This document shows, piece after piece, positions 4,418 to 16,249 of a stretch of 64,000 nt of DNA. The notes under the pieces were generated by a model. It was given only the letters and a program-made list of their open reading frames with translations. It had not been told where the DNA came from and made no database searches. The stretch covers positions 1 to 64,000 of the forward strand of contig JAFLUG010000001.1 of the NCBI GenBank assembly GCA_022508885.1. Direction: 5' to 3'. Origin of the DNA: Oscillospiraceae bacterium (GTDB lineage: Bacteria > Bacillota > Clostridia > Oscillospirales > Ruminococcaceae). The position numbers were made by a program, and so were the translations under genes. The first letter of the stretch is position 1, and every line of letters starts with the position of its first letter.

Positions 4418-5326
4418 ATGGCAGATTCTTACAATCAGTCGAATAAGGCGTACAGAAGAAGCCTGATGACCCACTCTATCATCAGACTTATAGTATGCAT
4501 TCTTCTTACGATAATTTGCTTGTTCCCGCTTTATGTTATCATAAGCAACGCCACGAGAGGACACGATGAGATCATCAACGGCGGTATCGCGTTCTTTGGC
4601 GGCAGCCTTATCAAGAATATCGAGACGATAAACGACCCGTCTATCTTCGCGGGCTTCTTCGTAAACCAGTTCAGACTCTGGGACGGTTACAGAAACAGCC
4701 TGATCGTAGCCGGTCTGTCGACGATTTTCACGGTGTTCTTTTCGGGTATGACCGCATACGGACTTGTAGTTTATGACTTTAAAGGAAAAGGCTTTTTCAC
4801 AAACTTTATTCTCGCGGTCATGATGGTTCCTATGCAGGTCGTTTCTACAGGTTTCCTGCAGTTCATGTTCCAGTTGAACCTCGTCGGCGGTCCTTCGGCG
4901 TACATCGCGCTTATTCTTCCGTCGATAGCGGCTCCCGCTGTTGTATTCTATATGCTTCAGTACATGAGAAGCTCGTTCCCGCTCGAGATCGTTGAGGCGG
5001 CTCGTATCGACGGCTGTGGAGAGTTCAGAACGTTTATGCAGATAGCGCTTCCGATATTCAAGCCCGCGTTTGCTGTACAGGCTATCTTCGCTTTCGTTAC
5101 AAGCTGGAACAACTACTATACGCCTTCGATGCTGCTCGGCTCTGCCGAAAGCAGTCTCAAGACCATTCCGATGATGGTTCAGGCAGTGCTGCTGGCTGAT
5201 AAGCTCAGCGACAACGGCGCGAAGTATCTCGTAATCACGCTCTCCATCCTGCCGGTTATCATTATTTATCTGGTACTTTCGAAGTTTATCGTAAAGGGTG
5301 TTGCTCTCGGAGCGGTCAAGGGATAA
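4418..5326 (+). CDS. Sugar ABC transporter permease, MalG/UgpE type
   Basis: This 302-residue membrane protein has about six transmembrane segments and the EAA motif EAARIDGCGEFRTF followed by LPIFKP near residue 200. It begins 15 nt after the first permease, with AAGGAGTGAGG as ribosome site. It pairs with the MalF-type subunit in carbohydrate import. It is the last gene of the operon; a hairpin (5361-5384) and a 105-nt structured element follow. Confidence 0.9.
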   Translation: MADSYNQSNKAYRRSLMTHSIIRLIVCILLTIICLFPLYVIISNATRGHDEIINGGIAFFGGSLIKNIETINDPSIFAGFFVNQFRLWDGYRNSLIVAGLSTIFTVFFSGMTAYGLVVYDFKGKGFFTNFILAVMMVPMQVVSTGFLQFMFQLNLVGGPSAYIALILPSIAAPAVVFYMLQYMRSSFPLEIVEAARIDGCGEFRTFMQIALPIFKPAFAVQAIFAFVTSWNNYYTPSMLLGSAESSLKTIPMMVQAVLLADKLSDNGAKYLVITLSILPVIIIYLVLSKFIVKGVALGAVKG

Positions 5327-5360: not shown

Positions 5361-5384
5361 GACCGACGTCAGCAATGGCGTCGG
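5361..5384 (+). terminator. Hairpin after the permease operon
   Basis: ACCGACGTC / GGCGTCGGT (one G-U pair) closes a 6-nt loop. No T-run follows directly. It abuts the 105-nt element, whose downstream end does carry a T6 run (5501-5506), so termination may occur there instead. Confidence 0.45.
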
Positions 5385-5386
5385 TT

Positions 5387-5491
5387 CAGACTGTATATAA
5401 AGCCCCATCTGTGTCGTCATCGCCGCTGCGGCAGGCACAAAGCCTAGCCGCAGCGGCGCTTCCTAGCATCTGGGACTTTCTCTACAGTCTG
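5387..5491 (+). repeat. 105-nt long-hairpin element, copy 1
   Basis: Outer arms are CAGACTGTA (5387-5395) and TACAGTCTG (5483-5491). Second arms are AAAGCCCCA and TGGGACTTT. A perfect inner stem GCCGCTGCGGC / GCCGCAGCGGC continues into AGGC/GCCT around an ACAAA-type loop. A second element of exactly 105 nt with the same outer arms and layout but a different inner stem lies at 15909-16013 in the opposite orientation. No protein-coding content. It may be a small mobile repeat or a structured RNA at operon ends. Confidence 0.7.
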
Positions 5492-5592
5492 GAATTGAAC
5501 TTTTTTACAAGCTGAACCAATGTCAGTAATGGTATAGTGACATTACAAAAGGTAATTTAAAAGTTGTATTTAACAATTTGTAGTTAATTGAG

Positions 5593-15784: not shown

Positions 15785-15908
15785 TAGGAATATTAAAAAA
15801 ATTCCGAAAATTCCCTCGCAAATATTTAACGCAAAAAGATAAAGCGTCCCGCTTATACGAGCAGAACGCCTGGATTATCTGTTGTTTGAATTATATAAAT
15901 TATATTTT

Positions 15909-16013
15909 CAGACTGTTGAGAAGCCCCCAGATGCGCGAAATCGGCATCACGATCAGCCTTTGTGGCTATCGTGATGCCGATCACAAAGCAGATGAGGGCT
16001 TATCGACAGTCTG
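15909..16013 (-). repeat. 105-nt long-hairpin element, copy 2
   Basis: The outer arms CAGACTGT (15909-15916) and ACAGTCTG (16006-16013) equal those of copy 1. The second arms AAGCCCCCAGATG and CAGATGAGGGCTT match copy 1 when this copy is read on the minus strand. The inner stem TCGGCATCACGAT / ATCGTGATGCCGA is perfect but unrelated in sequence, and the loop again carries a small AGCC/GGCT stem. It begins 2 nt after the acpP stop. The rest of the 310-nt gap 15706-16015 holds only the rodA promoter and A/T-rich sequence. Confidence 0.7.
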
Positions 16014-16015
16014 AA

Positions 16016-16249
16016 TTACTGCTTATCCTCAACATATTTTACAATATCGCCTACAGTCTTGATATTTTCAACCTGATCCTCGGGGATCTCAACCGAAAAC
16101 TCGTCCTCAATAGCCATAACAAGGTCAACAACGTCGAGCGAGTCCGCGCCGAGATCATCGGTGATAACAGACGCCTCAGTGATGCTGTTCTTATCGGTAA
16201 CATCGAGCTGATCCGCAATAATGTCTCTTATTTTCTCAAAAGTTTCCAT
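16016..16249 (-). CDS. acpP: Acyl carrier protein
   Basis: The 77-residue acidic helical protein has the phosphopantetheine site GADSLDVVDLVMAIEDEF with the modified Ser at about residue 37. It carries growing acyl chains for the Fab enzymes. It is the last gene of the fatty-acid operon, 121 nt after accA, with GGAGG 9 nt before the ATG. Its position at the end differs from the usual place just after fabH or plsX. Confidence 0.95.
   Translation of the reverse strand: METFEKIRDIIADQLDVTDKNSITEASVITDDLGADSLDVVDLVMAIEDEFSVEIPEDQVENIKTVGDIVKYVEDKQ

Follow-up and report, generated by a model that had tools for sequence, protein, structure and literature searches.

Two 105-nt hairpins of an Oscillospiraceae genome are very probably copies of a high-copy MITE of the IS1182 family

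The two 105-nt hairpins of the window, i.e. the whole 64,000-nt stretch of DNA analysed here, are very probably copies of a high-copy MITE of the IS1182 family that is restricted to one gut genus of the Oscillospiraceae. This reading is drawn from sequence comparisons: the repeats are short (105–129 nt), occur many times and carry no transposase gene. The initial annotation had proposed either a structured RNA family or a non-autonomous mobile hairpin. The latter gains from the large number of copies, from sites that are filled in one genome and empty in another, from terminal repeats resembling those of IS1182 elements and from target duplications.

The two hairpins and their relatives

Both hairpins are present and exactly 105 nt long. 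As initially described, they have in common the ends CAGACTGT...ACAGTCTG and AAGCCCC-type second arms, and their inner stems differ in sequence while each is perfectly paired. They lie in opposite orientations; if the orientation showing the loop GGCTTTGTGCC is called forward (canonical), copy 1 falls on the minus strand. The features of the two sites are as follows.

4418..5326, plus strand: sugar ABC transporter permease (which we take it to be from its sequence), the gene upstream of copy 1
5361..5386, plus strand: terminator hairpin of the ABC-transporter operon, putative target of copy 1, GACCGACGTCAGCAATGGCGTCGGTT
5387..5491, minus strand: copy 1 hairpin, 105 nt, its end at 5387 being the terminal repeat CAGACTGTATATAAAG
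5492..5514, minus strand: outer end of copy 1, the second terminal repeat, CAGCTTGTAAAAAAGTTCAATTC; the full unit is 5387–5514
5515..5540, plus strand: decayed direct duplicate of the terminator hairpin, AACCAATGTCAGTAATGGTATAGTGA, identical at 16 of 26 positions
15836..15880 (approximate limits), minus strand: terminator-like hairpin lying downstream of acpP, with TTTATCTTTTT after it
15885..15908, plus strand: decayed outer end of copy 2, TTTGAATTATATAAATTATATTTT
15909..16013, plus strand: copy 2 hairpin, 105 nt
16016..16249, minus strand: acpP (acyl carrier protein), with 2 nt between its stop codon and copy 2

When the own genome (2.28 Mb in 176 contigs) was searched at the DNA level, 21 matches were obtained, of which 20 are further ones, copy 1 on the opposite strand included. 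A covariance model derived from 14 copies finds about 55 places, which often match on both strands since the element is palindromic. The lengths are mainly 104–106 nt; longer forms (122–135 nt) contain added small hairpin modules and shortened forms measure 44–74 nt. None of the outcomes named in the initial annotation as refuting it (a lack of more copies, random lengths, a lack of compensatory changes) occurred.

The search was extended to 61 genomes. Copies occur in 35 of the 37 genomes of the genus, several of which hold at least 50, and the 24 genomes representing other families within the order gave no match. When 85,000 species were scanned by pattern, matches appeared only in metagenome-assembled Clostridia, several of them titled Oscillospiraceae or Ruminococcaceae and many coming from samples named ‘Lapin’.

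The mobile unit and its target duplications

The complete unit measures about 129 nt and consists of an outer end, CAGCTTGTATAAAAAGTCnnATTT, and the 105-nt hairpin. The BLAST matches of copy 1 in sister genomes extend 24 nt past the 105-nt boundary and cover 5385–5516, and in the alignment of sister copies a constant outer block, CAGCTTGTATAAAAAGTCnnATTT, precedes CAGACTGT. This block is a terminal repeat and resembles the far end CAGACTGTATATAAAG. Thus the hairpin positions first reported were right, but the outer 23–24 nt of the mobile unit had been missed. For copy 2 the outer end retains 11 of the 22 specified consensus bases (P ~0.014 for a random site), which is weak taken alone, yet matches in other genomes also run into it.

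Target duplications were sought in 40 sister-genome copies picked for carrying the outer block, by comparing the sequence to the left of the outer block with that to the right of the hairpin; re-pairing left and right flanks between different copies provided the null. For 21 of the 40 the duplication matches or exceeds the 99th percentile of this null, where ~0.4 were expected. The sizes fall into two classes, 5–9 bp and 19–34 bp, the latter corresponding to a whole stem-loop, e.g. aatccgctctcttattttgagagcggat on either side of one element. Several duplicated stem-loops precede a T-tract, which gives them the look of terminators. Of the 52 older copies of the own genome, 7 attain this percentile when the unit is taken as 129 nt long and none when it is taken as 105 nt. 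The 105-nt boundaries are thus ruled out as transposon ends, since target duplications appear only with the 129-nt ones. At one locus of the own genome (L032, contig C126) the flanking terminator hairpins are alike with the loop inverted (ATTAT vs ATAAT).

The two sites of the window

Copy 1 sits within the T-tract of the conserved terminator of the ABC-transporter operon. In four relatives (G065, G022, G009 and G002) the conserved hairpin runs straight into its T-tract without interruption; in G012 (~95% identical) copy 1 is also present. The decayed duplicate on the far side of the element is in exactly the expected register (P ~0.0002 for that register, four having been looked at), and six of its ten differences are transitions. 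A promoter and terminator scan found just a weak pattern inside copy 1.

Copy 2 lies between the stop codon of acpP and the terminator-like hairpin of this gene. A position immediately behind the final gene of an operon, initially attributed to both copies, therefore holds for copy 1 and not for copy 2, which is 2 nt past the acpP stop and ahead of that hairpin. G012 has this copy as well and G022 lacks it; no target duplication is visible in the flanks of copy 2. Its inner loop (window 15938–15975) is exactly inverted in the G012 ortholog (L138), ATCACGATCAGCCTTTGTGGCTATCGTGAT in the own genome corresponding to ATCACGATAGCCACAAAGGCTGATCGTGAT, while the rest of the stem matches. The rodA-acpP interval of G009 and G005 (L142, L143) is filled by a repeat of another type, with AGAGGCTAGAAGCTAGAGG and AGAGGTAAGAGGTAAGAG runs in both orientations.

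Pairing, covariation and their timing

The initial proposal that pairing, and not sequence, is kept is true across the family. Among 67 distinct copies 97.9% of the pair cells are standard, vs 84.9% in shuffles. Compensatory changes are frequent: 29 of 40 pairs have changed on both sides, a value that none of 500 shuffles attained, and double-change cells number 345, vs 101 in shuffles and 16–46 in slid controls. As the alignment had been fitted to the model, these figures are somewhat inflated; an independent MAFFT alignment already gives double changes in 26 of the 40 pairs.

Such strong covariation could also come from a structured RNA acting at each site, for example by stabilising the 3' end or as a regulator of the upstream gene, and spread by duplication. 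The copies are indeed found at the 3' ends of genes, and the non-Watson-Crick states shared by at least two copies are G.T in 20 cases and A.C in 5, counted by column (binomial p 0.004, the columns not being fully independent because of shared ancestry), a pattern typical of folding as RNA or as a single strand. With symmetric scoring of the own-genome copies the counts are 28 vs 7 for the outer and inner stems, and 28 vs 13 when the bulged middle region is included. But the most recent changes do not have this bias. Between the orthologous copies of the own genome and the near species G012, departures from Watson-Crick pairing comprise 8 G.T, 10 A.C and 7 other single mismatches, against two double compensations, both within one copy; likewise singleton non-Watson-Crick pairs are 13 G.T vs 10 A.C. 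The substitutions over the same comparison amount to 69 of 2001 sites in the element and 148 of 2781 in the flanks, which are partly coding. Together, the rates and the ortholog pair changes indicate at most a mild constraint after insertion. Moreover the orientation relative to flanking genes is mixed, related species have empty sites, and the Rfam search of the window returned no family matching the hairpins. A function of the RNA at each site is thus not supported, and we consider this explanation quite improbable; of the structured RNA family first proposed, the family-wide preference for pairing over sequence stands, whereas the hairpin is not visibly defended at orthologous sites.

We infer instead that pairing matters to the propagating lineage of the MITE, its role probably being in transposition. 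If pairing were needed for movement, this would explain why it is kept between copies and left undefended after insertion. It perhaps matters on one strand: on the canonical strand shared states are G.T about four times as often as A.C, recent changes are not, and a pure cruciform would have no polarity. The stricter proposal, that propagation needs the folding of one particular strand (RNA or single-stranded DNA) beyond a double-stranded palindrome, appears doubtful.

These results point to a trap for RNA discovery, as strong covariation can stem from a mobile element that needs pairing to spread. The comparison of orthologous copies tells a per-site RNA function from covariation driven by mobility.

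A putative IS1182 partner

In the mechanism that we propose, an IS1182-family transposase would mobilise the MITE, or would formerly have done so. The unit would be laid out as a terminal repeat CAGCTTGTATAAAAAG, a short spacer and the 105-nt near-perfect hairpin ending in CAGACTGTATATAAAG (read inward). The transposase would join it next to a palindromic sequence, typically an intrinsic terminator's stem-loop; on repair, either the whole stem-loop (19–34 bp) or 5–9 bp would be duplicated. The exact MITE ends at issue for such a partner would be CAGCTTGTATAAAAAGTC and CAGACTGTATATAAAGCCCC.

Within the genus, a minority of genomes carry genes of the IS1182 family (PF13751). G033 encodes an intact transposase of 476 aa, which scores 379 bits with the IS1182 model NF033551 (cut-off 270) and matches PF13751 and PF05598. 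The ends of this transposon, CAGTCTGTATATAAACCCC and CAGCTTGTCCAAAAACCCC, agree with the two MITE ends at 14 of 16 and 13 of 16 positions, a level (13/16 to any MITE end) reached by 9 in 100,000 random 16-mers of the window; overall, IS1182 ends match MITE ends at 10–14 of 16 positions, the likeness being assessed at the ends. The G033 transposon is flanked by two copies of a 34-bp palindrome, and the IS1182 elements of G020, Acetoanaerobium and Cetobacterium likewise lie between two palindrome copies. That of Enterococcus faecium starts with CAGACTGTAGACAAAG and is adjoined on one side by a terminator-like hairpin. A further IS1182 element, whose end is of the same type and adjoins a palindrome, neighbours a type III-A cas10 gene on plasmid pTVN of Thermocaproicibacter melissae (L333, NZ_CP101828.1).

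No IS1182 transposase is seen in the own genome assembly or in most high-copy genomes, G033 being the only one among the highest-copy genomes to have it; metagenome assemblies may lose repeated IS copies. The number of MITEs is not correlated with the presence of the transposase, and G020 has the transposon with 0 MITE matches. That 1.5-kb repeats often drop from metagenome assemblies, or that the source is extinct, would explain the absence, but this is an excuse and not evidence.

The scarcity of the gene would fit mobilisation of the MITE by some other DDE transposase family whose ends are similar: most high-copy assemblies have no IS1182 gene, and the transposase families searched were Y1 and IS1182. 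We nevertheless hold this to be very improbable, as both ends and the palindrome-duplicating habit fit IS1182 elements found in this genus and in other phyla.

REPINs reportedly consist of a short inverted pair with a variable inside, are present in many extragenic copies and are moved by RAYT. The present elements likewise have a pair of inverted ends around a variable interior and are numerous and extragenic, so that a REPIN-like element mobilised by a transposase of the Y1 (RAYT) type could be envisaged. But PF01797 is absent from six high-copy genomes (G005, G006, G009, G033, G012 and G013) and target duplications are at odds with insertion by Y1 transposases; although the own genome has one PF01797 match, this reading was rejected as scarcely credible. 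There is next to no likelihood either that these are ordinary intrinsic terminators which recur by chance or through convergence: the hairpin does follow genes, and on the plus strand a T-run lies 9 nt past the copy 1 stem, but this run is too distant from that stem and forms part of the outer transposon end, the ends and the length are common to the copies, and the operon already has its own terminator.

Relation to known elements

A MITE related to IS1182 is already known, MITEPye1 of Paracoccus yeei (PMC11578231). According to the parts of that article consulted, it resembles the present element in being non-autonomous, with IS1182-like terminal repeats, direct repeats and a long stem-loop fold. 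It differs by its 1–3 copies per chromosome, vs ~55 here, and by its unrelated host; those same parts report neither duplication of a whole hairpin nor covariation (PMC11578231).

IS1272, TnSha1 and TnSha2, of the IS1182 family, target inverted repeats, often terminator hairpins, without a sequence consensus (PMC5678879, PMC4923244). In these cases the target hairpin is partly or wholly removed and no duplication arises (PMC5678879, PMC4923244), whereas the present MITE keeps and duplicates it. Replacement of the stem-loop as by IS1272 was rejected on this ground. IS1182 elements are thus known to strike terminator hairpins, and the examples reported in the open-licence literature (IS1272, TnSha1) remove them. 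The duplication found here corresponds to pathway b of the model in PMC5678879, and that of a whole hairpin by an abundant short element is an outcome drawn there as an untested alternative. Hundreds of natural insertions are now at hand for working out the target rule. As for the BOX, RUP and ERIC elements, short repeated extragenic hairpins with modular insides, the likeness is in general type only (PMC3049150, PMC10969869).

Placement and changes in place

In the own genome 17 of 30 copies lie 0–6 nt from the stop codon of the convergent right-hand gene, where a uniform distribution would give 9.5; the sister genomes do not share this feature. An excess of copies exactly at stop codons was rejected, as taking gap sizes into account brings it down to these 17 vs 9.5 expected, and to 4 vs 3.3 in the sister genomes.

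Orthologous copies differ by exchanges inside the hairpin. In one pair of orthologs (L075/L237) the whole element is in opposite orientation. At L073/L203 the site is filled in the own genome and empty in G012 except for CAGTCTG, which may be the footprint of a deletion between the ends. Such changes in place are what template switching of replication at palindromes would yield, and the inner stems and loops may well have diversified by this route. Small hairpin modules have also been gained or lost between orthologs (L003/L236, L076/L239 and L078/L234); in these pairs, and in L084/L250, modules are present in one ortholog only, and the same modules recur at many loci.
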